Source: Desulfobulbaceae bacterium (GTDB lineage Bacteria > Desulfobacterota > Desulfobulbia > Desulfobulbales > SURF-16). From it: 64,000 bases of DNA. The position numbers and the translations under genes were made by a program. Positions 4,587-63,168 of the stretch are shown piece by piece. The stretch covers positions 1 to 64,000 of the forward strand of contig PKTX01000046.1 in the NCBI GenBank assembly GCA_002868945.1, given 5' to 3'. Positions within the stretch are counted from its first letter, which is position 1, and each line of letters opens with the position of its first letter. The notes under the pieces are model-generated. The model was not told where the DNA came from and ran no database searches. It saw only the letters and a list, made by a program, of their open reading frames with translations.

Positions 4587-4800
4587 GGATATCTTGAACA
4601 ATGAGATATTTTGTCCGAGCTTGAGGGACAGGGAAAATAAAAGGTGCCGCAAGGGCATTCGGAATGTCGCTGCTCCCTTACCTTCTCCGGCTGCGCAGCA
4701 TATTAAGTATATGTGAGCAATTTTATTTTCGTAGCGCCGAAAAAATCGAACAGGTAAGCGAGCCTGCGAGACTCCGAAATAACAATTATTCAAAATGGTC
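4587..4800. repeat. Family II inverted-repeat element, copy upstream of hflK
   Basis: Left end GGATATCTTGAACAATGA; right end CAATTATTCAAAATGGTC, whose complement is GACCATTTTGAATAATTG. The 214-bp interior contains GGTAAGCGAGCCTGCGAGA, a motif found repeatedly in family I too, and an A/T-rich pair (AAAATAAAA ... TTTTATTTT) that would form an internal stem. It ends 23 bases before the hflK start codon, so the element probably supplies or disrupts the hflK promoter region. Confidence 0.65.
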
Positions 4801-4823
4801 TAAAAAAAAAAGGGAGAATATTT

Positions 4824-5918: not shown

Positions 5919-5935
5919 GCTGCGGCACGATTCTA

Positions 5936-6075
5936 GGCTATCTTGAATAATTGCTTTTTCGTCCAAGCTCTGCGTTATGCTCAAAAAATAATGCTCGGAA
6001 TATCAAATATATGCCTGCGCTGATTTTTTTCGCATGCCTTGATCTTGAAAGAAAAATCTAATTATTCAAGACACC
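5936..6075. repeat. Family II inverted-repeat element between hflK and hflC
   Basis: Ends GGCTATCTTGAATAATT and AATTATTCAAGACACC form near-perfect 17-bp inverted repeats. The interior (GCTCAAAAAATAATGCTCGG, ATATCAAATATATGCCTGCG, CCTTGATCTTGAA) is nearly identical to the core of family I copies although the ends belong to a different family. It lies inside what is normally a tight hflKC operon. Confidence 0.75.
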
Positions 6076-6132
6076 TTCTATCTTTACGACCAAGGCGGCC
6101 TCGGCCGCCTGCACTATACGAGAGGAATTTTC

Positions 6133-7056: not shown

Positions 7057-7076
7057 GTTGGCGGAGGCGCCCCGGC

Positions 7077-7745: not shown

Positions 7746-8416
7746 TTCCTCTCCTGGCTGGCGTGGCGGATGGCCTCGTGCCACTGCCTTGTTTCCTGAG
7801 CGATATCGTCGGCCTGGGTCAGGGCGGTGACCACGGCAAGCCGTCTGGCCCCGAGGCTGACCAGCTCGGCAATATGCTCTTTTTTGATGCCGCCCATGAC
7901 CGTGAAGGGCAGGTCGGAGTGGGCCGAGTAGGTGGTGATGGCCTGGGCGCCGAGAAAGCTATGCAGGCCCGATTTGGTCTGGGTGGCAAAGAGGGGGCCT
8001 ATATTGTAATAGGAGGCGCCCTTCTCCTTGGCGGCGGCCGCCTGTGCCTCGGTGTTCGCCGAGACGCCGATGATCAGCTCCGGGCCAAGGCGACGAGCCT
8101 CCCGGGCCGGAATATCGCTGTTGCCCAGGTGGAGGCCGTCCGCCTCGGCCAACAGGGCGATATCCAGGCGGTTGTTGACCATGAACAGGGCGCCGGCCTC
8201 ACTGGTCATTCTTCTGAACTCCCTGGCCTTGGCCAGCAGGGTTCTGTCGTCGGATGTTTTGTCACGGAGCTGGACAATCTTGGCGCCGCCGGCCAGGACG
8301 CCGGCCAGCCACTCAATGTCGCTGCGACCGCAGGCCAGTTTTTCGCAGGAAACCGGATAGACGGTGACTTGCTCAATAAAGTGCTGCAGACGTCTGGTGT
8401 AGAGTGATGAGGTCAA
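7742..8416 (-). CDS. thiE: Thiamine-phosphate synthase
   Basis: Joins HMP-PP and THZ-P to thiamine phosphate. TIM-barrel enzyme of 224 residues with the family landmarks: IVQLRDKTSDDR (diphosphate binding), MVNNRLDIALLAEADGLHLGNSD, IIGVSANTEAQAAAAKEKGASYYNIGPLF (written here in part) and PFTVMGGIKKEHI. The N terminus is slightly long and the only available start near it is TTG (8414-8416), preceded by AAAGGCGGAAA. It is coupled to the following cysteine-rich gene by an ATGA overlap. A degenerate family I repeat lies immediately upstream; I saw no TPP riboswitch there. Confidence 0.92.
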   Translation of the reverse strand: MTSSLYTRRLQHFIEQVTVYPVSCEKLACGRSDIEWLAGVLAGGAKIVQLRDKTSDDRTLLAKAREFRRMTSEAGALFMVNNRLDIALLAEADGLHLGNSDIPAREARRLGPELIIGVSANTEAQAAAAKEKGASYYNIGPLFATQTKSGLHSFLGAQAITTYSAHSDLPFTVMGGIKKEHIAELVSLGARRLAVVTALTQADDIAQETRQWHEAIRHASQERK

Positions 8417-41899: not shown

Positions 41900-42814
41900 A
41901 TGGTGCGTATTGACGGTAGCCGTGTCCGGCAGTTGCGCGAAAAAAAGGGGCTCACCCAGCTCTATGTCGCCACTGCTGTCGGGGTCACCACCGATACTAT
42001 TTCCCGTTGGGAAAACAGGCACTACCAATCCGTTAAGTTGGAGAATGCCCGTGGTCTTGCCGCGGCCCTTGAGGTGGAGCTTGCCGCCATTCTTGAAGCG
42101 TCGGAGCCTCAAGAAGCTGAAGAAGTGGAAGGAGCGGAATCGGTGGCGGCCAGCGTTTCGGTACCATCTCCGGCCGGATCGTGGTTCAAGGGCAGAGGGG
42201 CACTGCCGGCAATTCTACTCCTGGCGGCCATGCTGGCCTTGGTGGTTCTGCTGATGCGCAACAAAGAGCAGGACTTGGCTCCGGATATCGGCTTGACGGC
42301 AACCAGGAAGATTCCCGCTCATGCCATGCCCGGCTATCCCATGCCGGTGGTAATTACCGTGGAGAGCACTGCCTCGCCTGTTTCGGTGCTGATCAAAGAG
42401 ATACTGCCGTCTCGGGTCAGGGTGGTGAGTTCATCCGCCACCCTGCAGCCCGCAGGCAAGGAGGAGCTCAAGTGGATTGTCAAGCACCTGAGCGGCCGGC
42501 AGCGTTTTGGGTACATGGTGAGACCGACGAACGGGGAAGACCTGCACTTTCATGGCACGGTGGCTTCTGGTGCCGGCAGGGGGCAAGAGGTGGTCATCGG
42601 CGGTGGGCAGTCCGTGGCTATGGCCCCTTTTCATTGGGCCGATACCAACCGGGACAACATAATCAGCGATGACGAGATCCTGGTGGTTTATGATGATTTT
42701 GAGGATGTGGACGGCCTGGATGTGGATGTCGAACTGGTGGAAGAGATGTGGATAGGCAGCGGCTATCGCTGGGATGAGAATAAAGAGGCCTTTGCGGTTA
42801 TTCCTTGGCCCTGA
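41900..42814 (+). CDS. Membrane-anchored HTH protein with EF-hand-like periplasmic part
   Basis: 304 residues in a RodZ-like order: N-terminal XRE-type HTH (SRVRQLREKKGLTQLYVATAVGVTTDTISRWEN written in part: GLTQLYVATAVGVTTDTISR), linker, one TM helix (ALPAILLLAAMLALVVLLM, about residues 100-120) and a periplasmic domain. The latter holds a Ca-binding-loop-like DTNRDNIISDDEIL, as found in dockerins/EF-hands, near residue 250. It may be a transmembrane regulator that senses periplasmic conditions; RodZ itself lacks the EF-hand. ATG 41900 chosen from the HTH boundary; its RBS is weak and a start further upstream cannot be excluded. It overlaps the small cysteine-rich gene by 17 bases, tail to tail. 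Confidence 0.72.
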   Translation: MVRIDGSRVRQLREKKGLTQLYVATAVGVTTDTISRWENRHYQSVKLENARGLAAALEVELAAILEASEPQEAEEVEGAESVAASVSVPSPAGSWFKGRGALPAILLLAAMLALVVLLMRNKEQDLAPDIGLTATRKIPAHAMPGYPMPVVITVESTASPVSVLIKEILPSRVRVVSSSATLQPAGKEELKWIVKHLSGRQRFGYMVRPTNGEDLHFHGTVASGAGRGQEVVIGGGQSVAMAPFHWADTNRDNIISDDEILVVYDDFEDVDGLDVDVELVEEMWIGSGYRWDENKEAFAVIPWP

Positions 42815-42968
42815 AAAGCTGACATCTCATGCCGGAATTTGTCAAAACCACCAGGGAGGGGAGCTGGCGGGACTTGAACTTCATGGCCCGGCAGCCATAG
42901 GGGTGGGCCGGCAGATGAGTGATGTAAAAGTAACGGCACTTAAAGCAGTTTGGCCCCTGCTCACTCAT
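42798..42968 (-). CDS. Small conserved cysteine-rich protein (56 aa)
   Basis: The sequence NCFKCRYFYITHLPAHPYGC, then AMKFKSRQLPSLVVL and a fourth Cys in SGMRCQLF has the look of a conserved short protein seen in many Desulfobacterota and other anaerobes: CxxC, then two more cysteines, with a PS[LV]VV middle. It probably binds a metal. The ATG overlaps the stop of the BadF-type ATPase gene (ATGA) and has GGAGGCGAGC upstream, so it is translationally coupled as the third gene of that operon. Confidence 0.72.
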   Translation of the reverse strand: MSEQGPNCFKCRYFYITHLPAHPYGCRAMKFKSRQLPSLVVLTNSGMRCQLFRAKE

Positions 42969-43627
42969 GGCCAGCTCGCCTCCATGCCAGCCACCACACT
43001 CAGACCTCTGAGCAGGACAAAGCGGCCGAGGGGGATGACCGTGCCCGGGAAGCTCCTGACAAAAAGAGGGTTGGCGCACAGGCCGCCGGAGAGGTAAAGC
43101 CGGTCTGGTTCTCCGGCAAAGCGGTGGGCATTCAGGGCAATGGATTTGACAAAGCGGGCCACGGCCTGCGTCTCGTCGCAGCCGGTGGTGATTTCATCAA
43201 ATATCTGGCTTATGCCAAGCACGCCGCAGGTGACGGAAAAGGATGTTTGCGGCACCTCAAGTTTCGTAAAGTCAATATTATAGTAGCGGCCCAGCAGCTC
43301 TATGGTGAAGCCCATGGAGGCGCCGCATTCGGCATTCCATCCCATATCCGCCATCTTGCCCTTCTCATAACGGATGAATTTGATGTCGCGGCTGCCGCAG
43401 TCAAGCAGGGTGAAGTCCGGTTCGTTGATCAGATATTCGCCGCCGCGGGCCAGGGCGGTCAATTCATTGACATATTTCGTGGTGTAGCGTTTGGCGTTGT
43501 GACCGGTGGCCATGTCCACTCGCAGGTCGGCTTTGATCTTTTTGGCGGCCTCCAGGTAGGGGTGCGGTTCCGGGGCGGCCAGGTCGATGAACTTGGCATA
43601 GGTTGTGCCGAAATCAGCAAGAAGCAT
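42965..43627 (-). CDS. BadF/HgdC-type ATPase (acyl-CoA dehydratase activase family)
   Basis: ASKHA ATPase of 220 residues. Phosphate-1 motif LLADFGTTYAKFIDL, phosphate-2 LLDCGSRDIKFIRY, adenosine motif YLSGGLCANPLFV. The two cysteines that in activases hold the intersubunit 4Fe-4S cluster are present (NAECGASMGF and SVTCGVLGIS). Such proteins inject low-potential electrons into a partner by ATP hydrolysis. No dehydratase or benzoyl-CoA reductase subunits are near; the partner is presumably the gene just upstream, which it overlaps by 14 bases. It is slightly shorter than typical activases (~260). Confidence 0.85.
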   Translation of the reverse strand: MLLADFGTTYAKFIDLAAPEPHPYLEAAKKIKADLRVDMATGHNAKRYTTKYVNELTALARGGEYLINEPDFTLLDCGSRDIKFIRYEKGKMADMGWNAECGASMGFTIELLGRYYNIDFTKLEVPQTSFSVTCGVLGISQIFDEITTGCDETQAVARFVKSIALNAHRFAGEPDRLYLSGGLCANPLFVRSFPGTVIPLGRFVLLRGLSVVAGMEASWP

Positions 43628-44405
43628 GGCAGGCTCCGGAAAGTTCCAGGAATGCTTGGATTTTGGCGCGGACCGAGCTGCCGGCGCTGATGTCGTTGTC
43701 CAGGAAGAGGGCGCAGGGATGTTTGTCGGCCAGATGCTTGGCCAGAGCGGTCTTGGCGCAGAACGACTGGGCAAAAAAGACGGTGGGCACCGCCGCATTG
43801 TAGAGGGACTCAAGCCTCAGGTCTGCCGGTGTCTTATTTTCCATGCAGCGTGTCCAGCCGTAGACATGGGTGGTGTTCGGGAAAAGGGCCAGCAGGGAGA
43901 AGTCGCGGGGCGGTACGCCCCAGAAGGCGGCTGTGGGCAGGCAGGCCGGGAGCTCCCGGTGCCTGGCCGTGGACTGGATTGACTTGCAGATTTGTGCAAT
44001 TTTTTCCGGCAGCGGCATGTCGGCCGTGCATAAGGGGTTGCCATAGGGCGTGGTGTCGCGGTTTATCGTGGTGAGGACCGGGATTGACAAACGATCCGCC
44101 AGGATGGTGGCAACATGCAGGGCGCAGTCGCACTTGCCTGGACCGACATCCATGATAATGGCCTGCAGGTCCAGGTGAAGGCTGTTGATGACCACGGTGC
44201 GCAGGATGGCGCAGTAGACGCGGGGCAGATAGAGAATGGTCTCCTCCATGTCCCGTCTGACAATGGTTTCATCCAGATCGAAAAGAGTGGCCCTGCATTT
44301 TTCCAGGGCCGCCATGATGTGGAGCGGCGGCACACCGACAATGCCCACCGGTGCTCCTGGTGGCAGATTCTTCAGAAAGGTGAGCTGGTCTGTCTCCGAC
44401 AACAC
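43614..44405 (-). CDS. Unrecognised partner of the BadF-type ATPase
   Basis: 263 residues, cytoplasmic, eight or more cysteines scattered along it (EKCRATLFDL, VYCAILRT, GKCDCALHVA, PLCTADM, QICKS, ELPACLP, TRCMENK, SFCAKT, HPCALF, ACHASC). I do not recognise a family with certainty; the C-terminal half (THVYGWTRCMENKTPADLRLE, VPTVFFAQSFCAKTALAKHLA) looks like a substrate- or cofactor-binding domain and is the most conserved-looking part. GTG start with TGAGGAC upstream. Because it overlaps the ATPase gene it is the best candidate for the ATPase's electron-accepting partner. Confidence 0.6.
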   Translation of the reverse strand: MLSETDQLTFLKNLPPGAPVGIVGVPPLHIMAALEKCRATLFDLDETIVRRDMEETILYLPRVYCAILRTVVINSLHLDLQAIIMDVGPGKCDCALHVATILADRLSIPVLTTINRDTTPYGNPLCTADMPLPEKIAQICKSIQSTARHRELPACLPTAAFWGVPPRDFSLLALFPNTTHVYGWTRCMENKTPADLRLESLYNAAVPTVFFAQSFCAKTALAKHLADKHPCALFLDNDISAGSSVRAKIQAFLELSGACHASC

Positions 44406-44409
44406 GTCC

Positions 44410-45489
44410 TCACCCCCCTCGATTCATACGGGAAATAGAAAAAAGGCCGATGCCCAGCATGGCGATGTGGATGGACCAGGCCGCCATGTTGGGCGTCAGG
44501 ATCTCGGCCCGGGCCATGGACTGCATGCTGGACCAGATTCCCCAGAAGACAAAGGCCAGACAGCAACTCAGCGGAATGGCCACGGTCAGGTCCCGGCCCC
44601 AGCGTTGATGGACGTGGATGGTCAGCGGAATGGCAACAATAAAGAGCGGAACGCCCAAGAGGATAAAGGAGAGACGGGCATAGAAGTCCAGAGTGCCGGT
44701 GAGGAGGCCCTCTTTTTTGTCCTGCTGCGCCTTGTGCCAGAGATAGGTGATGGAGTGCTCTTCAGCCCGGTAAACAGGGGCAAAAAAGTCCGTCGCCCCC
44801 TCCTTGAGGGCCACCTGCCGCTTGCGAAAGGTTTTGATGGCGTATGTCCCTTGGGGGGTCAGGGTCTTTTCCAGTCCCTTGCCGAGGTGCCACTCCTCCT
44901 TATGGTGCGCACTCTGGGCAACGAGGAAATTGGTCAGGCTGTAGTTGTCATCCCACTGGGTGTAGATCAGATCTCGATAGGCGTGATCGTCCTTGGTCAG
45001 CCGGAAGGTGTAGATGCCCTCGCTGCCGCGAAAAAAGATGCGACCGTTTTGCAGGATGCCGTTAATGATAGGTTGCTTGACCTGGGTGTACCAGATTTTG
45101 TTGGTCTTGCTGGTGGTGATGGGCAGCAGCCACTGGGACATGGCCAGGGTGATGAGGGTGAGCAACAGTGAGGCCAGTATCATCGGGGTCAGAATACGCC
45201 AGAGGCTGATGCCGCCGGCATTGAGGGCCATTGCCTCACGGTTATGGTTGAGCAGACCCAGGGTGATAATGCCGGCCAGTAAAATGGCCACCGGTGAAAG
45301 TTGATAATAGATGCTGGGGATTTTGATGATGAAAAAACGCAGGGCAAAACCGATGCTCAGGCCTTTTTCGGTAAACTGGTCAATCTGCTCAAAGAAATCT
45401 ATGAGCAGATAGAGGGAAATGAGCCCCCCCAGCACCAGAAGCATGTTCCAGAAAAGTTGTCTGATAATGTAACGATCGAGAAGATTCAA
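44410..45489 (-). CDS. lptG: LPS export permease LptG/LptF family
   Basis: Inner-membrane permease of the LptB2FG lipopolysaccharide exporter. 359 residues: three N-terminal TM helices starting MNLLDRYIIRQLFWNMLLVL, a ~170-residue periplasmic beta-jellyroll domain, and three C-terminal TM helices. The start motif (LDRYI...F) and AREAMAL-like NREAMALNAGGIS are diagnostic. The LptG rather than LptF assignment is from overall similarity only. It overlaps crcB by four bases. Confidence 0.86.
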   Translation of the reverse strand: MNLLDRYIIRQLFWNMLLVLGGLISLYLLIDFFEQIDQFTEKGLSIGFALRFFIIKIPSIYYQLSPVAILLAGIITLGLLNHNREAMALNAGGISLWRILTPMILASLLLTLITLAMSQWLLPITTSKTNKIWYTQVKQPIINGILQNGRIFFRGSEGIYTFRLTKDDHAYRDLIYTQWDDNYSLTNFLVAQSAHHKEEWHLGKGLEKTLTPQGTYAIKTFRKRQVALKEGATDFFAPVYRAEEHSITYLWHKAQQDKKEGLLTGTLDFYARLSFILLGVPLFIVAIPLTIHVHQRWGRDLTVAIPLSCCLAFVFWGIWSSMQSMARAEILTPNMAAWSIHIAMLGIGLFSISRMNRGG

Positions 45490-45881
45490 GGGGCGCCGCC
45501 TCCCATGGCGATGAAGCGGCGGGCCAGCAGGTAGCCGGCAAAGACGAGGAGAACGCCGAAGATATTGCTGGTCAAGGCGTAGATGATTGCCACCTTAACC
45601 TCGCCCACCTTGAGCAGTTCCGCCTTTTCACGGGCAAAAGTGGAGAAGGTGGTAAAGGAGCCGAAAAAACCGGTGAGCACAAAGAGTCGGTATTCAACGG
45701 CAATTTTATAATGTTCCAGCAGGGCGCCGCACAGGCCGATGAGAAAGGAGCCGAGCAGATTGACGGAAATGGTGCCCACAGGGAAGTTGCTCTGGACAAA
45801 ACGATGCACAAAGATGTTGATGCCGTGACGGCTGGTGGCCCCCAAGCCACCGCCCAGCATTATGGCAACAATTTCTTTCAT
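45486..45881 (-). CDS. crcB: CrcB/Fluc fluoride channel
   Basis: Exports toxic fluoride. 131 residues with four TM helices and the family signatures GGGLGATSRHGI, GTISVNLLGSFLIG and TGFFGSFTTFSTFARE (the TTFSTF segment lines the fluoride pore). Upstream sequence (45882-46017) does not show the fluoride riboswitch core. Translationally coupled to lptG downstream. Confidence 0.92.
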   Translation of the reverse strand: MKEIVAIMLGGGLGATSRHGINIFVHRFVQSNFPVGTISVNLLGSFLIGLCGALLEHYKIAVEYRLFVLTGFFGSFTTFSTFAREKAELLKVGEVKVAIIYALTSNIFGVLLVFAGYLLARRFIAMGGGAP

Positions 45882-46017: not shown

Positions 46018-47565
46018 ATGGTGCCCCTTGTCCAGCTTGTCACTGTTGATTGCCCTAAGCCAAGTCTGCAAGATAACACAGGTGATATAGATAGACTAAA
46101 AAAAAATGTTGCGGCGATCTGTGGCATGCCGCTTATCGTGCCCTATCAGGCCTTGGCCCCGGTGGCCGCCGCCTTTCGGCGGGCCGGTTTTGCGGGGCAT
46201 GCCGTGCTCAATGACTGCGGCATCTTCTATGAACTTGTTGATTTTGTTGCAGAAAAACCTAAGGTCTTGCCGGCGGTCGCTCTTGATCTCGGCACCACCC
46301 ATCTGGAGGCCAGCCTCCTTGATCTGTTGAGCGGCAAGGTGATGGCTCAGGCCCATCTGGCCAACGGCCAGATCGACTATGGTACGGACATTCTGACCCG
46401 TATCCATTTTGCCGCCAGCCCGGAAGGTCTTGCTGCTCTGCAGCGGGCCGTTCTTGCCTCCATCAACAGCCTCTGCGCCGAATTGAGCAGCAAGGCGGGT
46501 CTGGCCGGGACGGATATCCGCGGCCTGGCAGTTTCCGGCAACACCACCATGGTTCATTTTCTGCTCGGCATTGAAGCAGCCAGCCTCTGTCGTGAGCCCT
46601 ATATCCCCGGGATCAACAGCCCGGATATCTGCCACGCTCAGGATTTACGTCTGGCCATGCACGATCTGGCACCGGTCTGGATCATGCCCAGTGTGGGCAG
46701 CTATTTCGGCGGCGATCTCATCTCCGGTATTGTCGCCTCCGGTCTTGACGCCCGGGCCGGCACTGCCATGCTCATCGATGTGGGCACCAATGCCGAGGTG
46801 GTGGTGGGCAACCGCGAATGGCTCATTGCCTGTGCCGGCGCGGCCGGCCCGGCCCTGGAGGGGGGCATTGCCAAGATGGGCATGCGGGCCGGAGCGGGTG
46901 CCATTGATAGGGTGCGCATTGACCCGGACAGCGGCGAGGTGACCTATTCCACCTTGGGTGGCGGCAAGGCGCGCGGCCTGTGCGGCTCCGGTATCATCGA
47001 CCTGGTTGCCGCCCTCTATCTGGCCCGGATGATCGATGTGCGGGGCAAGTTTCAGCCCCGCTTTGCCGGAGAACGTCTCATCACGGAGAAGGAAGGGCCT
47101 GCCTTTGTGGTGGCCACGGCCGAGGAGAGTGCTGATGGTACGCCCGTGACCTTTGCCCAGGTTGATCTTGATGCCATGATGCGTTCCAAGGCGGCCATGT
47201 ACTCCATTCTCACCACCATTATCGGCCAGGTCGGCCTGGAGTTTGCCGATCTGGAGAGGATATTTGTGGCCGGCTCATTCGGCAAGCATATTGATCCGCG
47301 CCAGGCCATCACCCTGGGCATGATGCCCGACCTGCCTCTTGATGTCTTTGAGGCCATCGGCAACAGCTCCCTGGCCGGGGCCGAGGAGGTGCTGCGCAGC
47401 CGCCGGAGCCGCGAGCGCTGCCAGGCTTTGCCGCAGAAGATTACCTACCTGGAGCTCAATGTGAACCAGGAGTTTATGATCCGTTTCTCGGGCTGCCGTT
47501 TTATCCCCCACACCGATCCGTCACTCTTCCCATCTGTACCTGTTTTTGACGATTGTACGAGCTGA
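46018..47565 (+). CDS. RACo/RamA-like ASKHA activator lacking the [2Fe-2S] domain
   Basis: 515 residues. After a ~85-residue linker-type region comes the DUF4445 ASKHA ATPase of corrinoid-protein reductive activators: AVALDLGTTHLEASLLDL, LAVSGNTTMVHFLLGI, SVGSYFGGDLISGIVASGL, MLIDVGTNAEVVVGN, and CAGAAGPALEGGIAKMGMRAG. These enzymes use ATP to reduce Co(II) to Co(I) in methyltransferase corrinoid proteins. The normal N-terminal ferredoxin-like [2Fe-2S] domain with its four Cys is absent; the last 70 residues carry two Cys (ERCQALPQK, FSGCRFIPH). Either a separate ferredoxin serves it or the N-terminus has been lost. ATG 46018 follows GAGAGTCGGAAAAT. Confidence 0.78.
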   Translation: MVPLVQLVTVDCPKPSLQDNTGDIDRLKKNVAAICGMPLIVPYQALAPVAAAFRRAGFAGHAVLNDCGIFYELVDFVAEKPKVLPAVALDLGTTHLEASLLDLLSGKVMAQAHLANGQIDYGTDILTRIHFAASPEGLAALQRAVLASINSLCAELSSKAGLAGTDIRGLAVSGNTTMVHFLLGIEAASLCREPYIPGINSPDICHAQDLRLAMHDLAPVWIMPSVGSYFGGDLISGIVASGLDARAGTAMLIDVGTNAEVVVGNREWLIACAGAAGPALEGGIAKMGMRAGAGAIDRVRIDPDSGEVTYSTLGGGKARGLCGSGIIDLVAALYLARMIDVRGKFQPRFAGERLITEKEGPAFVVATAEESADGTPVTFAQVDLDAMMRSKAAMYSILTTIIGQVGLEFADLERIFVAGSFGKHIDPRQAITLGMMPDLPLDVFEAIGNSSLAGAEEVLRSRRSRERCQALPQKITYLELNVNQEFMIRFSGCRFIPHTDPSLFPSVPVFDDCTS

Positions 47566-48706: not shown

Positions 48707-49975
48707 TCAGAGCGTTTCGCCGGAGGCCAGCTCAGGGCCGGGAAAATCCTCGGCGCGGCTCCAGGGGGCAATGATACAGTTGCGGCCTATTTTGACCTGG
48801 GCCGGAATAGTTGCCTCTTTGCCCACCAGGCTGATACCGGTGTAGAGATGGGAGGGGTATTTGTTGTTGGGGATCTTCTTGTTGTTGCCGTGGCCCACCA
48901 CGGCGCCTTGGTGCACGGTGACGCGTTTATCCAGAATGGCCAGGTCAACGCGGGCCTGGGCCGCGACGTTGACGTCATGAAAGAGAATGGAGTCACGGAT
49001 GACTGCCCCTTTGGCCACTGTGACGCCGGGGGAGAGCACCGAGTTGTACACCTCTCCGGCAATGGTGCAGCCAGCCGAGATCAGTGAGCGGTGCACCGTG
49101 GCGCCGGGTAAGAATCGGGCCGGCGGGCGATCGGCACTGCCTTTGACGCTGGATTCGATATTGGGCCGTACTCGCCAGCTTTCAGGGGAAATGCCGGAAT
49201 GTTCCTCCAGGAGATCCATATTGGCCTGCCAGTAAGACTGAATGGTGCCCACGTCACGCCAGTAGTCGTGGAAGGGGTAGGCAAAGACATCGTCGCGTTC
49301 AATGGCCTTGGGGATGAGGTGCATGCCGAAGTCAACCTCGGCTCGATCCTCTCCCAGCAGCTGCAGGAGGTAGTCGGTGTCAAAGACGTAGATGCCCATG
49401 GAGGCCAGATTGGTCCGCGGCACCTCCGGTTTTTCCTCCCACTCTACAATACGCCCCTCGTCATTGGTGATACCTGTACCGAATTGGTGGATATCCTCTT
49501 TGGGAACCACCATCATGGCAATGGTGACATCGGCATTTTTGCGGCGATGAAACTCCAGCATATCGTCAAGATCCATGCGGTAGATATGGTCTCCGGAGAG
49601 GATGACAAGCTCCTTGGAGGGATGGGCCTTGATGAAATCGATATTCTGGCGCACCGCATCTGCCGTGCCCTGGTACCAGTCAGAGTCCTGGGAACCGGTA
49701 CGTGGCGGCAGGATCTTGACGCCGCGACGGCGGCCGATAAAATCCCACGCCTCGCCGCCGCCGAGATGACGCATGAGGCTGAGCGGCTTGTATTGGGTGA
49801 GAACGCCCACCTGGTTCAGGCCTGAGTTCATGACATTGGAGAGGCTGAAATCGATGATACGATAGATGCCGGCAAAGGGTACGGCAGGCTTGGCCCTGGT
49901 CTGCACCAGGTTGTTAAGGCGGCTGCCCACGCCGCCGGCCAGGATGAGGACCAGGGTGTTGTCGTCTGTTGTCAT
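48707..49975 (-). CDS. glgC: Glucose-1-phosphate adenylyltransferase
   Basis: Makes ADP-glucose for glycogen synthesis. 422 residues. The nucleotidyltransferase motif is complete, LILAGGVGSRLNNLVQTRAKP, and YRIIDFSLSN, WYQGTADAVRQN, LSGDHIYRMD and the substrate site EWEEKPEVPR are present, followed by a left-handed beta-helix C-terminal domain. Its ATG overlaps the stop of the upstream glgC-like gene by four bases (start 49975), with GAGGTGGTGCG before it. Likely the catalytic subunit of a pair. Confidence 0.92.
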   Translation of the reverse strand: MTTDDNTLVLILAGGVGSRLNNLVQTRAKPAVPFAGIYRIIDFSLSNVMNSGLNQVGVLTQYKPLSLMRHLGGGEAWDFIGRRRGVKILPPRTGSQDSDWYQGTADAVRQNIDFIKAHPSKELVILSGDHIYRMDLDDMLEFHRRKNADVTIAMMVVPKEDIHQFGTGITNDEGRIVEWEEKPEVPRTNLASMGIYVFDTDYLLQLLGEDRAEVDFGMHLIPKAIERDDVFAYPFHDYWRDVGTIQSYWQANMDLLEEHSGISPESWRVRPNIESSVKGSADRPPARFLPGATVHRSLISAGCTIAGEVYNSVLSPGVTVAKGAVIRDSILFHDVNVAAQARVDLAILDKRVTVHQGAVVGHGNNKKIPNNKYPSHLYTGISLVGKEATIPAQVKIGRNCIIAPWSRAEDFPGPELASGETL

Positions 49976-51231
49976 CGCACCACCTCACCGGGGTTGATGT
50001 GCCGGGTCAGTTGGGCGGCATCAACACGCGGATAGATGGTGCAGCCTGCGCCGATGATCAGCTCATCCGGGAAAAAATTGTTCCATCCCAACACCGTGAC
50101 ATTTTTATCGTCATTTCCCATACTTTTTCCTATCTGAACGTTGTTGCCGATGGTGACATTGACATCACTGATGATTTTTTCAAGGCGGCAGTCACGGCCC
50201 ACCACATTGTTAAAAAAGAGCACCGAGTCTTTGACCACCGCCCCCTTCTTGACATGAACGCCGGGAAAGATGATGGAGCGCTCCACCTCGCCTTCAATGA
50301 GACAGCCGTTATAGATCAGGCTGTCGTTGATCTTGGCGTGGCTGCCCACCTTCATGGGCTGGCAGTCGCGGATATTGCGGTGTTCAAGGTTGGTGCGCAG
50401 GCCCCACTCTTCAAGCTGTATCTTCGGGGTGGGGCCCAGCAGGTCCATGTTGGTCTGCCAATACTCGTCAATGGTACGACTGTAGGCCCAGTAGTCATGG
50501 AATTTATAACCATATATCTTGCATTTTTCGAACATCATGCGCGGGATGATGTCGCGGCCGAACTCAAAGGAGTCGTCCTCGCGGGCATTTATGGTGAGCA
50601 TCTCATGCAGAACTTTCGGTTTAAAGCAGAATACGGTCATGGAGGCCCAGTTAAACTCCGGCTCAGCGGGTTTCTCCGTGTATTGCAGAATGCGACCACC
50701 GCGATCCTGGTCTTCATCGTCAATGTCGGCCACTCCGAAGCGCTGGGCTTTTTCGGGCGGCACCCGTACGCAGGCGATGGTCAGGTCGGCATCCTTTTCA
50801 CGGTGGTAGGCGATCATGTCGCGGTAGTCCATGTGGTAAACATGGTCGCCGGAGAGGATCAGCAGTTCATCCGGGTCATGATATTCGATAAAATCGGAGT
50901 TCTGGAAGACGGCGTCGGCCGAGCCTTTGTACCAGGAGCTGGTGCCGAAGCCGGTGGAAGGCGGCAGGATGGAGACGCCGCGGTACTTGCCGAGCATGTC
51001 CCAGGCCGCGCCTATGCCGATGTGGTTGATGAGGGAGAAACTGCGATACTGACTTAAGATGGCCACCTGTTCCAGGCCGGAATTCATCAGGTTGCTCAGG
51101 GGAAAATCAATGATCCTGGCAAAACCTCCAAACGGGACAGCTGATTTTGGTCGGTAATGGGTGAGAACGTTAAGTTCGTCCACTCGACCGCCTGCCAGAA
51201 TCATGGCAAGGGTGCGTGGCTTTAGTTTCAT
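49972..51231 (-). CDS. GlgC-like subunit with degenerate nucleotide-binding loop
   Basis: 419-residue paralogue of the following gene. The sugar-binding and structural parts are intact (RIIDFPLSNLMNSGL, WYKGSADAVFQN, LILSGDHVYHMDYRD, and a beta-helix C-terminal domain), but the phosphate-binding loop reads LAGGRVDELNVLTHYRPKSAVP instead of GGxGxRLxxLTxxRAKPAVP: the second Gly and the catalytic Arg are missing. A regulatory, GlgD-like partner is the best explanation, comparable with the GlgC/GlgD pairs of Firmicutes. First gene of the two-gene operon. Confidence 0.8.
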   Translation of the reverse strand: MKLKPRTLAMILAGGRVDELNVLTHYRPKSAVPFGGFARIIDFPLSNLMNSGLEQVAILSQYRSFSLINHIGIGAAWDMLGKYRGVSILPPSTGFGTSSWYKGSADAVFQNSDFIEYHDPDELLILSGDHVYHMDYRDMIAYHREKDADLTIACVRVPPEKAQRFGVADIDDEDQDRGGRILQYTEKPAEPEFNWASMTVFCFKPKVLHEMLTINAREDDSFEFGRDIIPRMMFEKCKIYGYKFHDYWAYSRTIDEYWQTNMDLLGPTPKIQLEEWGLRTNLEHRNIRDCQPMKVGSHAKINDSLIYNGCLIEGEVERSIIFPGVHVKKGAVVKDSVLFFNNVVGRDCRLEKIISDVNVTIGNNVQIGKSMGNDDKNVTVLGWNNFFPDELIIGAGCTIYPRVDAAQLTRHINPGEVVR

Positions 51232-56258: not shown

Positions 56259-57629
56259 TTATTCAGGTCCGGTGCTCATCACCGTGCTGAGTTCCTCAAT
56301 GGAATTGGTCTTGATCCGCCAGTTGTAGATATCCTCCATGTCCTTGAAGACCTGGAATACCTGGAAGAAGCCATGCCAGTGGGCATAGTCAGGGGCATTC
56401 ATAGCTGCACCCTGGCGGGCCCTGCGGCCGGTATGGTGCCAGAGGAAGTACATGAGCTCCTGAAAGCCGTCACGCCAGGCATCGTCCTTGAGCAGGCCAC
56501 GGGCCTTGAGGTCCTTTTTCATGGTGACGGCGCGATCCCAATATTCGTTATAAAGGGCCACCGCGTCGTCCACGGTTTTCTCCTGGGTGGCGGTGTGGCT
56601 CGGGCCGTGGCAGTTGAGACAGACCTTCCGCATATTTTCTCTACCTTTTTCGCCATCGCCATGGATGCCGGAGCGCACCTCGCTGCGCTTATGCATCAGA
56701 TCCCAGTGCAGGCGCTCCTCGACATTGTGGGTTGTCTCCAGCTCACCGATGCCGCTCATGTGACAGACCGCACAGGTGGGCGCGGTGTAATCACCTGGCT
56801 GCCAGGTGTCGGGTGCCGCATCCCAGTTCCACTCTTCTCCCTGGGTCTGATAGATCTGGCCGTGCTTGCTCTCCAAATAGATCTCGATATTCGGATGGTC
56901 GGGGCCGAGATGGCAACTGGCGCAGGCCTCCGGTTTTCTGGCCTCGGCCACGGAGAATTGGTGGCGGGTATGGCACACCGTACAGTTGCCCACTGAGCCG
57001 TCCGGATACTTGGTGCCGACACCGGCCGGCCAGGTTCCGGCCAGGGGTTTATTGTCCGGACCGACTTTGACTTCGGAGCCGTGGCAGACCTGGCAACCGG
57101 ACTGGCGCGAGGCACCGTTGGCCGCTGAGCCTTCCTCGACACCCATAAATCCGCCGCCCTCATGGTGCAACTGCAGTGCTACCAGCTTGCCGCCAGCCTT
57201 GTTCTTGTCATAGACCGCGATGCGGGCCAGGTCAGCATGGGCACTCTGCTGAAACTGTTTAACCTCGGTGGGATGGCAGCGGCCACAGGTCTTTGAGGAG
57301 ACCATGGGGGAGATGAAGGTCTTGCTGCCCTTGATGCCAGAGCATTGGCTGGCCATGGGCGAGTTTTTGTCCACCACATGGCAGTCGTAGCAGGTGATGT
57401 TGGCGTGCCCCATTTTCCCCTGTTTCCAGGCCTCGATAATACCGGGCGTCTTCTGGGCGTGACACTCGATACATTTGCTTGCCTCAGCGGAAATGCCGCG
57501 CTTGACCACCACCTCCTTGGGGGCCATGTTGGGCATGCCGGCTGCCTGGGCATGTGTTGTGCCGAGGCTGAAGGCCCCGGCCAACAGAGCCGCGCCCACC
57601 AGTACGGGGTGTACACATTGTCTTATCAT
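56259..57629 (-). CDS. Octaheme cytochrome c, hydroxylamine-oxidoreductase family
   Basis: Periplasmic octaheme protein: after a signal peptide, eight CxxCH sites (CIECH, CYDCH, CGRCH, CQVCH, CTVCH, CASCH, CAVCH, CLNCH) and the HAO-type C-terminal helices with [20 protein letters not shown] and [15 protein letters not shown]. Its gene order with a NapC/NrfH-type tetraheme gene matches the haoA-haoC arrangement of epsilonproteobacteria, where the enzyme is thought to reduce nitrite rather than oxidise hydroxylamine. Whether the P460 Tyr cross-link residue is present cannot be decided by eye. ATG 57629 after AAGAAGGAGGGAACA; 456 residues. Confidence 0.87.
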
Positions 57630-57667
57630 TGTTCCCTCCTTCTTTGTTCTCTCTGTGGTATACGTCT

Positions 57668-58228
57668 TCATGTCTTGTTGAAAAACCTCGCTGCTGTCTC
57701 CAGCATGTCTTTGTGGCCCACATGCGGATGGCATTCCGCGCAGCGCTTACCGGTGGTGCCCAGCATATACTGGCGATGGGCGATAAGGCCGCCGGAAGGA
57801 ATTCCGGGTGGGGTTAAATTGTGATGGCAGCGCCGGCAGGCACTGTCAAAGGTGAAGTGAAGGCGGTTGCCTTCGGCATTGGCGGCCCAGTCAAACTTCT
57901 GGGCATCAAAGGTGATGTTTTGAATAACATCACCGGTGCCGGTAATGGCCTTGGTTGTCAGATATTCCACGAAATTGCCGTGGGGCAGGTGACAGTCAAC
58001 GCACTGGGCGGCAAAACCCTGCGGGTTCTGGCCGCCATGGACCGATTCCTGCCAGGAGGCCCGGAAGGGCGCCATGGCATGACATTTCACGCAAAAGGCA
58101 TCGGTGTTTGTCGTTTCAATCATAAAGCCCGATGCCAAGACGGTGACCAAGGCAAGGAGCACTCCCATGGAGATGCCTACCCACAAGGCCTTCTTGCCCC
58201 GGGGATGCCTCGTTCCCTCTTGTTCCAT
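57668..58228 (-). CDS. Tetraheme NapC/NrfH-family quinol dehydrogenase
   Basis: 186 residues. One N-terminal TM anchor ([20 protein letters not shown]) and four heme sites, CVKCH, CVDCH, CRRCH and CAECH, the NapC/NrfH layout. It passes electrons from menaquinol to the octaheme partner 38 bases downstream, and perhaps also to NapA since no napC is visible in the window. RBS AAAGGAGGTGATTTA directly before ATG is near perfect. Driven by the sigma-54 promoter at 58346-58363. Confidence 0.9.
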
Positions 58229-58345
58229 TAAATCACCTCCTTTTATCTCGTTGAGCTGCTTGAATATTTCATGGGCACCTGCCTATAAAGAAATAAGGCG
58301 ATGCCGGCCGCGATGGGAAGTTTGCGTTTCCGCTATTCTTACACG

Positions 58346-58363
58346 TAGCAAGTCCCGTTCCGT
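58346..58363 (-). promoter_or_regulatory. Sigma-54 promoter of the cytochrome operon
   Basis: On the minus strand ACGGAACGGGACTTGCTA: GG and GC 10 bases apart with a good TTGCT -12. Predicted start near 58336, 108 bases before the ATG. Confidence 0.65.
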
Positions 58364-58401
58364 GTATAAGTTGTTGATTTTGTGTGAACGTGGTCCGAGA
58401 T

Positions 58402-58417
58402 GTTACGGGATGGAAAC
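58402..58417. promoter_or_regulatory. Degenerate GTTAC-N6 palindrome
   Basis: GTTACGGGATGGAAAC; the right half GAAAC differs from GTAAC by one base. Centre 33 bases from the neighbouring site at 58435-58450. Confidence 0.45.
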
Positions 58418-58434
58418 AGTCGGTGGCGGCCAGG

Positions 58435-58450
58435 GTTACTGGTCGGTAAC
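58435..58450. promoter_or_regulatory. GTTAC-N6-GTAAC palindrome (cytochrome/napF divergent region)
   Basis: GTTACTGGTCGGTAAC. It lies between the leftward sigma-54 promoter at 58346-58363 and the rightward one at 58473-58488 and could serve both. Confidence 0.65.
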
Positions 58451-58472
58451 GACCGGCACGGGGCCGGTAAGG

Positions 58473-58488
58473 CGGTATGAATCATGCA
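58473..58488 (+). promoter_or_regulatory. Sigma-54 promoter of napF
   Basis: CGGTATGAATCATGCA: GG and GC ten bases apart, with GGTATGA-N5-TGCA as in the kinase promoter. Confidence 0.6.
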
Positions 58489-58595
58489 GCTTTGTTGCTC
58501 TGGAAGGGCGGCCGGGGTATCCTCTGTGCTCTGGAGACACCACTGCCCTTTGACCAAGGAGCAGGGCATCGTTAATATGAGTCAGGAAGGTGACA

Positions 58596-59063
58596 ATGGA
58601 TCTGAGTAGACGCCTCTTGTTGACCGGAGGCCGGGCGCCGCTGATCAGGCCGCCCTGGTCCGGAAAGGAAGATGACTTTGCCCGTAAATGCAACGGCTGC
58701 GGTATCTGCGTTACGGTGTGTCCCGAGAAGATTCTGGAGATTGCTGGTGGCAATTATCCTTGGGTCAACTTTGCCGATGGTCACTGCACCTTCTGTGGCG
58801 CCTGTCGCCGGCACTGCCCGGAGCAGGCCCTTGCCGGTGGTGATGACGAGTCTCCCTGGTCTTGCACGGCAGTCATTGGTTCCGCTTGCCTGGCCCGCCA
58901 GGGTACCAGCTGCCGGAGCTGCGGCGAGCATTGTCAAGATGCAGCCATCACCTTCCGCCTCGGCCTGGGCGGCAGCAGTCAGCCACTGGTCAACACGGAT
59001 CTGTGCAGCGGCTGCGGTGCCTGTGTGGGTGTCTGCCCGGTACAGGCCATCCATATTTTCTAG
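58596..59063 (+). CDS. napF: NapF-type iron-sulfur protein
   Basis: 155 residues with four cysteine groups: CNGCGICVTVCPEK, CTFCGACRRHCPEQ, CRSCGEHC and CSGCGACVGVCPVQ, the NapF pattern of several 4Fe-4S clusters. NapF is cytoplasmic and helps maturation or electron supply of NapA. The ATG at 58596 is preferred over an upstream GTG because AGGAAGG lies six bases before it. It is separated from napD by about 465 bases that hold the nap promoter. Confidence 0.87.
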   Translation: MDLSRRLLLTGGRAPLIRPPWSGKEDDFARKCNGCGICVTVCPEKILEIAGGNYPWVNFADGHCTFCGACRRHCPEQALAGGDDESPWSCTAVIGSACLARQGTSCRSCGEHCQDAAITFRLGLGGSSQPLVNTDLCSGCGACVGVCPVQAIHIF

Positions 59064-59198
59064 GGCAACTTGAATACAAGATGGCCACAGGCGAAACAGC
59101 TGCCTATTCAAGGCGCCTTTAAAAAAAAGCCATCCGCAGTACCATTGTTGTTCGATCCCGTGCCGCCTGTTCGTCTGCATGACCGGTGGTTTTCAGTG

Positions 59199-59287
59199 GT
59201 GCCTGTCCGGCAATGGCCCTGCCGATCGATCCGCCGGAGTCTCGCGAACTCGCGAGACTCGGAAGTGTCCTCTTTCTGGACAGACAC
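59199..59287. repeat. Short family I element upstream of the nap promoter
   Basis: Left GTGCCTGTCCGGCAATGGCC; right TCTTTCTGGACAGACAC, inverted. Only 89 bp, with the CGGAGTCTCGCGAACTCGCG motif in the middle. It lies 45 bases before the first regulator site. Confidence 0.7.
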
Positions 59288-59331
59288 TCCATACCCTGTT
59301 TTTCGAGAGACATTAGCTGACCTGGCGGGGT

Positions 59332-59347
59332 GTTACCTGAAGGTAAC
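59332..59347. promoter_or_regulatory. GTTAC-N6-GTAAC palindrome (nap, distal)
   Basis: GTTACCTGAAGGTAAC. Centre about 104 bases upstream of the predicted start. Confidence 0.7.
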
Positions 59348-59363
59348 GCTTCCCGTGCCTTTT

Positions 59364-59379
59364 GTTACCTGCTGGTAAC
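59364..59379. promoter_or_regulatory. GTTAC-N6-GTAAC palindrome (nap, proximal)
   Basis: GTTACCTGCTGGTAAC. Centre 32 bases from the distal site (three helical turns) and about 72 upstream of the predicted start. Confidence 0.7.
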
Positions 59380-59415
59380 AACATCTTGTTTTTCCGCCGT
59401 TTCCGGCCGATTTTT

Positions 59416-59432
59416 TTGGCATACCTCTTGCT
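59416..59432 (+). promoter_or_regulatory. Sigma-54 promoter of napDAGH
   Basis: TTGGCATACCTCTTGCT: close to the consensus TGGCAC-N5-TTGC, with GG and GC 10 bases apart. Predicted start about 59443, 85 bases before napD. Confidence 0.75.
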
Positions 59433-59527
59433 CTTCCCTTGATATGTGTGTGCATACTAAGAGTGTCGTCCCCCTATAGATGGCGGACAGGGTGGCCATA
59501 TCATGAATTCAAGGTGAGGAGTACCAC

Positions 59528-59764
59528 ATGGATATTGCAGGGGTTTTGGTTCATGTCAAACCGAGTGCGGTGGATCTGGTTGCAGAGTGTTTGGGCCGGC
59601 TGCCCGGCGTCGAGATTCATGCCAGGACGCAGGACAGTCGTTTTGTCGTCACCATCGAAGATGACGGCCATGGGGGAGTGTCCGATACCCTGAGCCAAGT
59701 CAATACCATCCAGGGAGTTCTTTCGGCAGCCATGGTTTATCAGCACGCAGAAGACGAGCAGTGA
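59528..59764 (+). CDS. napD: NapD, NapA maturation chaperone
   Basis: 78 residues of the NapD ferredoxin-like fold: GVLVHVKPSAVDLVAECLGR, GVEIHARTQDSRFVVTIED and DTLSQVNTIQGVLSAAMVY with the conserved I-(Q/P)-GV. NapD binds the twin-arginine signal of NapA until cofactor insertion is complete. RBS GGTGAGGAGTACCAC before ATG. First gene of the operon, 83 bases before napA. Confidence 0.93.
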   Translation: MDIAGVLVHVKPSAVDLVAECLGRLPGVEIHARTQDSRFVVTIEDDGHGGVSDTLSQVNTIQGVLSAAMVYQHAEDEQ

Positions 59765-59847
59765 AAATGGACCCGGGCCGGTTTTGCTGCCGGGAAACGC
59801 ACTCTGCCGGTGGTCCGGAATGGGTGAGCAAGTAAAGAGGAGAGAAT

Positions 59848-62358
59848 ATGAAACTAACAAGGCGAAAATTTATTAAAAGCAATGCGATTGCGGCCACTGC
59901 CGTTGCCGCCGGTATAAGCCTGCCGCAAGGCGAGGTCCTGGCCCAACAAGAGGATCCCACCATCCGCTGGGATAAGGCGCCCTGTCGCTTTTGCGGTACC
60001 GGTTGCAGTGTCCTGGTGGGCACCAAGAACGGTAAGATGGTGGCCTCCCAGGGCGACCCGGATGCGCCGGTCAATAAGGGTCTCAACTGTATCAAGGGCT
60101 ATTTTCTCTCCAAGATCATGTATGGTAAGGACCGTCTGCAAACCCCCATGCTGCGCATGAAAAACGGCAAGTACGACAAGAACGGCGTCTTTACCAAGGT
60201 TTCCTGGGACACCGCCTTTGATATCATGGCCGTCAAGTGGAAGGAGGCCCTTAAAAAGAAGGGGCCCAGCGCCGTGGGGATGTTCGGTTCCGGCCAATGG
60301 ACGGTGTGGGAGGGGTATGCCGCCGCCAAGCTCTATAAGGCGGGTTTCCGTTCCAACAATATTGATCCCAATGCCCGTCACTGCATGGCATCGGCGGTGG
60401 CCGGCTTTATCAGGACATTCGGCTCGGATGAGCCCATGGGTTGTTATGACGATCTCGAACATGCCGATGCCTTTGTCCTCTGGGGCTCCAACATGGCGGA
60501 GATGCATCCCATTCTCTGGTCACGCCTCACCGACCGGCGTCTCACCGCATCGCACGTCAGGGTGGCGGTGCTCTCCACCTTTGAGAACCGCAACTTTGAA
60601 CTGGCGGATCTCGGCCTCATCATGAAGCCCCAGTCCGATCTGGCTATTCTTAACTATATCGCCAACTACATCATCGAAAACGGTAAGGTCAACGAGGCCT
60701 TTGTCGCCAAGACGGTGAACTTCAAAAGGGGTAATGCCGATATCGGCTATGGCCTCAGACCCACCGATCCCCGGGAGCAGAAGGCCAAGAACGCCACCAA
60801 GGCCGGTGGTTCCTCGCCCATCTCCTTTGAGGAGTATAAGGCCTTTGTCGCCGACTACACCCTGGAGAAGGCCCATGAGATCTCCGGCGTGCCCAAGGAG
60901 CAACTGGTGGCCCTGGCCAAACTCTACGCCGATCCCAAGACCAAGGTGGTCTCCTACTGGACCATGGGCTTTAACCAGCACAGCCGCGGCACCTGGGTCA
61001 ATAATCTGGTCTATAACATCCATCTGTTGACCGGCAAGATTTCAGAGCCCGGGAACGGTCCCTTCTCCCTTACCGGTCAGCCCTCGGCCTGCGGCACGGC
61101 CCGCGAGGTGGGCACCTTTGCCCACCGCCTGCCTGCCGATCTGGTGGTTAAAAAGCCGGAACACCGCGCCTTTTCCGAAGAGATCTGGAAGCTGCCCCAG
61201 GGCACTATCCCCGGTCAGGTCGGTTTCCATGCCGTGCTCATGCAGCGCAAGCTGCGGGACCGGGAGATGAACTGCTACTGGCAGATGTGCAACAACAATA
61301 TGCAGGCTGGTCCCAATATTAATGATGAGATGTATCCGGCCTGGCGTGATCCGGAGAATTTCATTGTGGTCTCCGATCCCTATCCCACCGTGTCGGCCCA
61401 GGCCGCCGATCTGATTCTGCCCACCGCCATGTGGGTGGAGAAGGAGGGGGCCTACGGCAATGCCGAGCGGCGCACCCAGTTCTGGCGCCAGCAGGTCAAG
61501 GCACCGGGCCAGTCGCAGTCAGACCTCTGGCAGCTGGTGGAATTCTCCAAACGCTTTAAGGTGGAAGAGGTATGGCCGGCCGAGCTTATCGCCAAGAAGC
61601 CGGAGTATAAGGGAAAAACCCTCTATGACGTGCTTTATGCCAATGGCCAGGTCAATAAGTTCGGCAGACAGAAGATCACCGATATGGCCGGCAACGTCTA
61701 CGACAACAGCGAGATGGACCATTTCGGCTTCTATATCCAGAAGGGCCTCTATGAGGAGTATCGCCTCTTTGGTCTGAAGGGACCCAAGAAGGGCCATGAA
61801 CTGGGCGAGTTTGACAAGTACCACCAGGCGCGCGGCCTGCGCTGGCCGGTAATTGACGGTAAGGAGACCCTGTGGCGTTATCGGGAGGGCTATGATCCCT
61901 ATGTCAAGAAGGGAGAGGGCGTGGTTTTTTACGGCCAGAATGATGGTCGTGCCAATATTTTTGCGCTGCCCTGGGAACCGCCGGCCGAGTCGCCGGACAG
62001 CGAGTATGATCTCTGGCTCTCCACCGGTCGTGTGCTGGAACATTGGCATACCGGTTCCATGACCCAGCGGGTCCCGGAACTGTACCGGGCCGTGCCCCAT
62101 GCCGTGGTTTTTATGAATGCCAAGGATGCCGAGAGGCGCGGCCTGCGTCGTGGTGTGCCGGCCAAACTGATCACCCGGCGCGGGGAAATTACCGCCACCG
62201 TGGAAACAAGAGGCCGCAACCGAATGCCGGAGGGGCTCATTTTTGTGCCTTTTTTCGATGCCAGGCGCCTGGTCAACAAGCTGGTGCTGGATGCCACCTG
62301 CCCCATTTCCAAGGAGACCGATTTCAAGAAATGCGCTGTTAAGGTGGTCAAGGCATAA
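59848..62358 (+). CDS. napA: Periplasmic nitrate reductase catalytic subunit
   Basis: Mo-bisMGD enzyme that reduces nitrate to nitrite in the periplasm. 836 residues, the E. coli-type length rather than the short Desulfovibrio form. Twin-arginine signal [10 protein letters not shown]; 4Fe-4S cysteines at 46, 49, 53 and 81 ([22 protein letters not shown]); Mo ligand Cys at about 179 ([11 protein letters not shown]). [36 protein letters not shown] and the C-terminal MGD site are intact. ATG with GAGGAGAGAAT upstream. Confidence 0.97.
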
Positions 62359-62379
62359 GTCGTGGTGGTGGGAAGAGAT

Positions 62380-63168
62380 ATGAGTGATGCAGAGGTAAAG
62401 GATCAAGCCCATGCCAGCCGCCGCAGATTCCTGTTGGGGTCTGCGAAAACGGCCTGTGGCGTGGCCCTCTTCGGTCTGGGCCTGGGGTTCTATGGCGCTC
62501 GGCAGAGTGAGGCAATGCCTTACTATGCCATGCGGCCACCCGGTGCCCTGGATGAGAAACGTTTTCTGGCCGCCTGTATCCGGTGTGGCCAGTGCGTCCG
62601 GGCCTGTCCTTACAGCACCCTGCGTCTGGCCGCTCCGGAGGAAAAGGTGGCCACCGGCACCCCCTATTTTATTGCGCGCCAGATCCCCTGTGAGCTCTGT
62701 GAGAATCGGCCCTGTATCACGGCGTGTCCGTCAGGGGCCCTGGATCCTACTCTCACCGATATCTATCAGGCCAGGATGGGCCTGGCTGTTGTCATGGACC
62801 AAGAAAGCTGTCTGAACTTTCTGGGGCTGCGCTGTGATGTCTGTTACCGCAGCTGCCCATTGCTCGACAAGGCCATTAGCCTGGATGCCCAACATAACCG
62901 GCGCAGCGGTAAGCACACCCTCTTTATTCCCACGGTGCATTCCAAGCACTGTACCGGTTGCGGCAAGTGCGAAAAGTCCTGTGTCCTGGAAAAGGCGGCC
63001 ATCAAGGTTGTGCCCCTTGTCCTGGCCAAGGGTGAGCTGGGCAAACATTATCGTCTGGGCTGGGAAGAAAAGAGCAAGGCCGGCCGCAGTCTCATTCCTG
63101 AGCAGTTGGATCTGCCTGATCGTCTGCCTGAATTTGACAGCCCCCTGCAACCGGAGTGGAAGCCATGA
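62380..63168 (+). CDS. napG: NapG ferredoxin-type subunit
   Basis: 262 residues. Twin-arginine signal [11 protein letters not shown] followed by four 4Fe-4S clusters: [35 protein letters not shown] and [12 protein letters not shown]. NapG partners NapH as a quinol-to-NapA electron route. Start at ATG 62380 after GGAAGAGAT; an earlier in-frame start would add six residues. Its stop overlaps the napH start (ATGA). Confidence 0.93.

Follow-up and report, generated by a model that had tools for sequence, protein, structure and literature searches.

A compact HadC/DCCP-fold protein and its activase-type ATPase as a putative two-component ATP-driven reductase, near-universal in one order of sulfate reducers

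The window, that is, the whole 64,000-nucleotide stretch of DNA that was analysed, carries on its minus strand three overlapping genes, which we call A, B and C (Table 1). The overlap is 14 bases long between A and B (43614-43627) and 4 bases long between B and C (42965-42968). The trio is real: the reading frames lie where the original prediction had put them, and both overlaps are as it described. Its limits as a three-gene operon were drawn too small upstream, where an lptF/lptG-family gene and crcB lie, and too large downstream, where C adjoins B in 20 of 56 loci. Between the end of the lptF/lptG-family gene and A there are 4 bases, and the same gene shares 4 bases with crcB; the transcript therefore probably extends beyond the trio. 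This permease gene is probably co-transcribed with A, and we do not count it among the components of the mechanism proposed below.

Table 1. Positions of the genes and of the cysteine codons discussed in the text (gene positions of A, B and C include the stop codon)
Feature	Position	Strand	Remark
Gene A, compact HgdB/HadC/DCCP-fold protein	43614..44405	-	putative electron acceptor and catalytic component; coding 43617-44405, GTG start, 263 aa, stop 43614-43616
Gene B, compact HgdC/BadF-type ASKHA ATPase (activase)	42965..43627	-	coding 42968-43627, ATG start, 220 aa, stop 42965-42967
Gene C, 56-aa four-cysteine protein, optional neighbour	42798..42968	-	coding 42801-42968, ATG start, 56 aa, stop 42798-42800
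A Cys65 codon	44211..44213	-	proposed cluster ligand, compare BzdN Cys73; sequence checked by eye
A Cys92 codon	44130..44132	-	proposed cluster ligand, compare BzdN Cys100
A Cys187 codon	43845..43847	-	putative fourth ligand, or else beside the open iron; BzdN Cys263 counterpart inferred by topology
A Cys216 codon	43758..43760	-	proposed cluster ligand, compare BzdN Cys327
B Cys101 codon	43325..43327	-	cluster cysteine, expected at the dimer interface
B Cys134 codon	43226..43228	-	cluster cysteine, expected at the dimer interface
lptF/lptG-family permease gene	44410..45489	-	directly upstream of A; named by eye
crcB	45486-45881	-	named by eye

By sequence, the similarity of A to the dehydratase superfamily appears marginal. 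The A protein of the window had no Pfam or NCBIfam match at E up to 10; in a scan reaching to E 1, 20 of its 56 relatives touched PF06050, the best of them with E 9.4e-5, and ten relatives rescanned singly all scored <28.4 bits, below the Pfam HGD-D cut-off. Of all PDB sequences, HadC alone (E 0.68) matched A within the limit of E 10, in an alignment that pairs C65 and C92 of A with two HadC cysteines. A comparison of A with 21 DCCP-like proteins by hhalign gave E 0.004, with a probability of only 8.5%, over the stretch from C65 to C92, and an hhalign-type comparison with a narrower DCCP alignment was not significant (E 0.43).

The predicted structure of A (pLDDT 90.9) was closest to HadC (Z 14.9, rmsd 3.5, 230 residues aligned), followed by DCCP (Z 14.6 and 14.3), MbdN (14.3), BzdN (14.2) and HadB (11.7). 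Nine superfamily entries fell at Z 11.7-14.9, the first unrelated chain scored 7.0, and the five best Foldseek matches were those same superfamily proteins. In the model, two four-stranded alpha/beta halves adopt the two-domain arrangement characteristic of HAD/BCR/DCCP proteins, and the stretch linking them holds a single helix (132-144) between strands 110-113 and 159-163. At that place BzdN and BzdO have a three-helix middle domain that contributes to the CoA channel (PMC11971306). The model of A lacks this three-helix domain, the channel wall of full-size members, and we therefore infer that A has no CoA channel. The fold of A is well supported at the level of the model, and A would thus belong to the dehydratase superfamily as a protein of 263 residues and two domains (family length 237-275 residues), apparently without the CoA-channel helical domain. 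The statement that no dehydratase accompanies the ATPase holds as far as annotation goes; A itself has the predicted superfamily fold, and the genome has two further loci of this kind (C30 and C15, see below). Nor is the usual partner of such an ATPase absent, since A appears to be a compact version of that very partner.

Twelve cysteines are present in the A protein of the window. Four of them, C65, C92, C187 and C216, are invariant in 56/56 members of an alignment made without L004 and L022 (in-frame stop in A) and without further near-duplicates; C126 (50/56) and C155 (46/56) are less conserved. According to PMC11971306, the [8Fe-9S] cluster of BzdN is ligated by Cys36, Cys73, Cys100, Cys263, Cys293 and Cys327, and the catalytic [4Fe-4S] cluster of BzdO sits on three cysteines. 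The spacing from C65 to C92 is 27, the same as from Cys73 to Cys100 of BzdN, and in the predicted model C65, C92 and C216 precede helices, as do BzdN Cys73, Cys100 and Cys327. We equate C216 with Cys327 by topology plus a low-confidence profile alignment, and in the C-terminal half of A, C187 comes after strand two, the expected place of Cys263; both placements rest on the order of strands and helices, the profile alignment being unreliable there. Counterparts of BzdN Cys36 and Cys293 were not seen in A, which does not present the six ligand cysteines of [8Fe-9S] double-cubane proteins, and by eye the acid/base residues of BzdO, Glu65 and His131, had no match at the equivalent places of A. Given four invariant cysteines and no visible Cys36 and Cys293 counterparts, a double cubane in A seems unlikely, and the simplest reading would be a single [4Fe-4S] cluster with C187 as a ligand or beside an open iron.

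Gene B encodes a small HgdC/BadF-type activase. Its model (pLDDT 92.5) has the predicted ASKHA fold of the HgdC/BadF subfamily and is most similar to DCCP-R (Z 20.7, 215 residues aligned), MbdQ (20.1) and HgdC (18.8), the first other ASKHA protein being pantothenate kinase (16.2). Profile comparisons pointed the same way, with matches to HgdC (1hux_A, E 1.3e-10), DCCP-R (7yyl_E, E 3.3e-10) and the 2-hydroxyisocaproyl-CoA dehydratase activator (4eht_A, E 1.2e-9). Because B scores below the curated cut-offs of PF01869 (21.2 of 31.5 bits) and TIGR00241 (44.1 of 125.4 bits), it is, to judge from its sequence, a divergent, shortened relative of the BadF/HgdC activases. Both activase cluster cysteines are kept in B, as had been predicted: C101 and C134 align with the cysteines of 1hux and 7yyl_E and are invariant in 55/55 relatives (L068, in which B is cut by the contig end, was left out), which would give each monomer the two cysteines required for a shared [4Fe-4S] cluster. 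The sole low-confidence stretch of the B model is the loop of the first cluster cysteine (101-103).

We found A in 128 of the 146 genomes of the order to which the window belongs, a count that includes four genomes with an interrupted A (G030, G038, G042 and G088), and in 98 of 109 genomes of good quality. A named-genome scan with B, which requires exact short peptides and says little on distant relatives, returned 18 loci whose labels read Desulfobulbaceae, Desulfobulbus or some higher rank, and from these labels the order is taken to be Desulfobulbales. In the phylum, to which the profile search was confined, A was matched in 28 of 395 genomes, and a profile of 56 A sequences likewise gave 28/395. 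Besides the order, matches were confined to two families, f31 (54-56% identity) and f53 (39-41% in full-length matches). A plasmid location of A was rejected, as a search of a plasmid collection gave no match.

Wherever A was fetched, B was next to it: in all 40 loci fetched by A (L030-L049 and L051-L070) the two genes adjoin, B being cut at the contig end in L068. Conversely, 17 of the 18 loci fetched by B have A before B, one of these A genes with an in-frame stop, and the eighteenth (L020) begins inside B at a contig end. A search with B of 247 phylum genomes gave 22 matches at E <=2.7e-64, every one in an A-positive genome, and the next match (5.6e-13) belonged to ordinary paralogues. With A in 128/146 genomes of the order and B beside it in 40/40 loci, the A-B pair is not chance, and the pairing is well supported. 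Outside the order, A and B stay adjacent while the surrounding genes change, and clustering of the neighbours revealed only genes syntenic within the order and no metabolic theme. The expectation that the trio would recur in other genomes is thus borne out for A and B in 40/40 loci and not for C, which is optional (20/56). A literature search, with most subscription papers outside its coverage, found no description of the A-B pair.

Among known systems, DCCP with its activase DCCP-R (6eno, 7yyl, 7yzm) resembles A-B in layout, both being two-gene pairs of a single-gene acceptor and an ASKHA activase; in the models B is nearest to DCCP-R and A reaches Z 14.6 against DCCP. In contrast to DCCP, which has about 420 residues, A has 263, is without the middle helical domain and misses two of the six cluster cysteines. 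HadBC and its activator HadI (3o3m/3o3n, 4eht) share with the pair the fold nearest to A (HadC), the aligned C65 and C92, and an activator that B matches at Z 18.8, whereas HadBC has two acceptor genes instead of one and a CoA-channel domain is not predicted in A. Class I benzoyl-CoA reductases (BzdNOPQ, MbdNOPQ) resemble A in fold (Z 14.2-14.3) and apparently in three ligand-cysteine positions; they differ in having two catalytic and two activase subunits, a CoA-ester substrate and, in BzdN, a six-cysteine double cubane. The lead towards methanogenesis-marker families did not hold up and such membership was rejected, since no NCBIfam model of these proteins matched A, B or C (E up to 10) or the 56 A members (E up to 1).

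The original guess that the protein upstream of the ATPase accepts its electrons is now well founded: A is predicted to have the fold of HadC, DCCP, BzdN and MbdN, appears to have cysteines at three known ligand positions and has B adjacent in 40/40 loci. It is probable, in our judgement, that A and B together make up a minimal ATP-driven reductase of two components, acting on a small, probably non-CoA substrate. C101 and C134 of B would hold a [4Fe-4S] cluster around which this protein dimerises; B would bind ATP and dock on A, and ATP hydrolysis would then drive low-potential electrons onto the [4Fe-4S] cluster of A. This cluster would lie in the cleft between the two alpha/beta domains, held by C65, C92 and C216, with its fourth iron near C187 either serving as the reaction site or taking C187 as a fourth ligand. 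A would then reduce a small substrate, probably without CoA. The cluster, the use and coupling of ATP and the direction of electron flow are assigned here by homology to DCCP with DCCP-R and to dehydratases acting with an activator. More tentatively, and with rather less than even confidence, we suggest that A-B is a hitherto undescribed super-reductase driven by ATP, which retains only the two-domain core of the benzoyl-CoA reductase/double-cubane superfamily. Its four-cysteine site would stand halfway between HadB/BzdO with their single cubane and DCCP/BzdN with their double one, its substrate would be a small non-CoA molecule (a compound of sulfur or of nitrogen, for instance), and nearly every genome of one sulfate-reducing order would carry it.

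The occurrence of exactly four invariant cysteines in A would also suit a relay, in which C65, C92, C187 and C216 ligate the cluster fully and A-B serves to super-reduce or reactivate some other metalloenzyme of the cell. Other ASKHA ATPases, those of the RACo type, reactivate enzymes, and no substrate genes lie near A-B. However, the known proteins with the fold of A (HAD, BCR and DCCP) act on substrates. Acetyl-CoA synthase is absent from A-positive g19 genomes and present in A-negative g41 genomes, and nine A-positive genomes are without RACo; neither was retained as an obligatory target of A-B, since their presence does not track A. We regard the relay as possible and unlikely. The shared superfamily fold of A could alternatively mean that A-B is a 2-hydroxyacyl-CoA dehydratase or an acyl-CoA reductase that holds its CoA ester differently from known members. 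The known dehydratases and benzoyl-CoA reductases have two subunits of about 375-440 residues each and a CoA-channel helical domain, whereas A is a single protein of 237-275 residues with one helix in that place, and CoA genes were not found consistently near A-B by neighbour clustering. Such a function is improbable.

Sulfur chemistry is at hand in the hosts of the pair, since a DsrA match was found in every host tested (26/26), and A might be a desulfidase or sulfur-transfer enzyme like TudS, with B merely loading or repairing its cluster. The 4-thio-UMP desulfidase TudS likewise belongs to the superfamily in trimmed form and has a [4Fe-4S] cluster on three cysteines (PMC11971306, PMC10611767). 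TudS differs from A in having one domain and no activase, and is, to go by a section heading in the literature, independent of the cluster redox state. Such a redox-independent enzyme would need no ATP-driven activase, whereas A and B overlap or adjoin in every locus, a sign that B is needed for function. A TudS-like role is accordingly improbable as well. The 50 structural matches listed for the A model do not include TudS. That A-B serves the cell envelope together with the upstream permease can hardly be credited: lptF/G lies directly upstream of A in 44/48 loci of the order (at a distance of 25 bases or less in 29, with start codons as we chose them) but in 0/8 loci outside it, for which reason it was rejected as a functional partner, the predicted folds of A and B are those of a soluble low-potential redox pair, and plain co-transcription is simpler. 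These upstream counts and the adjacency counts of C refer to 56 loci, same-genome duplicates and the incomplete L017 being left out.

DsrA was rejected as a marker of A-B, since ten A-negative genomes tested also carry it. All 12 A-positive genomes tested outside the order matched DsrA, 11 above the cut-off; the match in G304 (73% complete) lay below the cut-off only. We give this co-occurrence little weight.

The genome of the window also holds a full-size double-cubane protein with its activase (G000:C30, 492 bits to 6eno) and a further HGD-D-like/activase locus (G000:C15), and A-B therefore comes on top of the known systems and does not stand in for them. Within the order, 51 of 96 genomes have a relative of this DCCP, which is thus less widespread there than A. 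To our knowledge, ATP-driven electron transfer beyond the potential of ordinary ferredoxin is limited to few systems: nitrogenase, 2-hydroxyacyl-CoA dehydratases, class I benzoyl-CoA reductases and DCCP. The reductase that we favour appears to be a compact version of such a machine. A smaller, stand-alone version in 128/146 genomes of one order would serve as a model for the origin of these machines and would help to show what a single cubane does without a CoA channel. It points to a further redox step in sulfate reducers, and offers a testable function for two gene families that passed no curated cut-off here.

Protein C belongs to a four-cysteine family found in 52 of 198 genomes of the phylum, the majority of which belong neither to the order nor to f31 or f53, and in two f31 loci its gene is about 7-8 kb away from B. 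On account of this wider distribution of its own, and of its adjacency in only 20/56 loci, C was rejected as an obligatory third component and is best treated as a passenger or an optional helper, accessory at most.

In the order Desulfobulbales, an lptF/G gene, the gene for the putative electron acceptor A (a compact HgdB/HadC/DCCP-fold protein) and that for its HgdC/BadF-type activase B follow one another in 44 of 48 loci, whereas this gene order was found in none of the 8 loci outside the order; within the run, stop and start codons frequently overlap. In the window, lptF/G is itself preceded by crcB. The RACo-like ATPase encoded divergently from this run seemingly lacks an N-terminal ferredoxin domain, and genes similar to it were found close to A-B in other loci.

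Outside the order, three loci of family f53 (L032, L036 and L038) have two metallo-beta-lactamase-fold genes adjoining the pair, and a CxxCxxxCC-type protein is also encoded next to it (labels assigned by eye).

The copies of A in L128, L129 and L130 (genomes G088, G038 and G030, respectively) and in L004/L022 show a frameshift near residues 157-181, a shortened linker or an in-frame stop, and B is intact in these loci. Either sequencing error or recent decay may account for such copies.

The genome containing the window carries two other activase-containing sets. Locus L076 encodes a bona fide double-cubane protein; when 96 genomes of the order were searched, 51 were found to carry a relative. 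The L077 set adjoins an acetyl-CoA hydrolase-like gene (labelled by eye).

Elsewhere in the window, the gene set containing the multihaem cytochromes resembles a periplasmic nitrate reductase region.

Features in the window and on two other contigs of the same genome
Feature	Location	Coordinates	Remarks
crcB-lptF/G stretch	window	44410-45881	
RACo-like ASKHA ATPase gene	window	46018-47565	divergent from the crcB-lptF/G-A-B-C run (C, optional 56-aa four-cysteine neighbour); label by eye
Two glgC-like nucleotidyltransferase genes in succession	window	48707-51231	label by eye
Multihaem cytochromes, ferredoxins, molybdopterin oxidoreductase with Tat-like start	window	56259-63168	labels by eye
Double-cubane protein and its activase	L076 (G000:C30)	5662-6969, 6973-7722	492 bits to 6eno (PDB entry of double-cubane cluster protein)
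Two dehydratase-like proteins and 340-aa activase	L077 (G000:C15)	4648-5748, 5863-6804, 6746-7768
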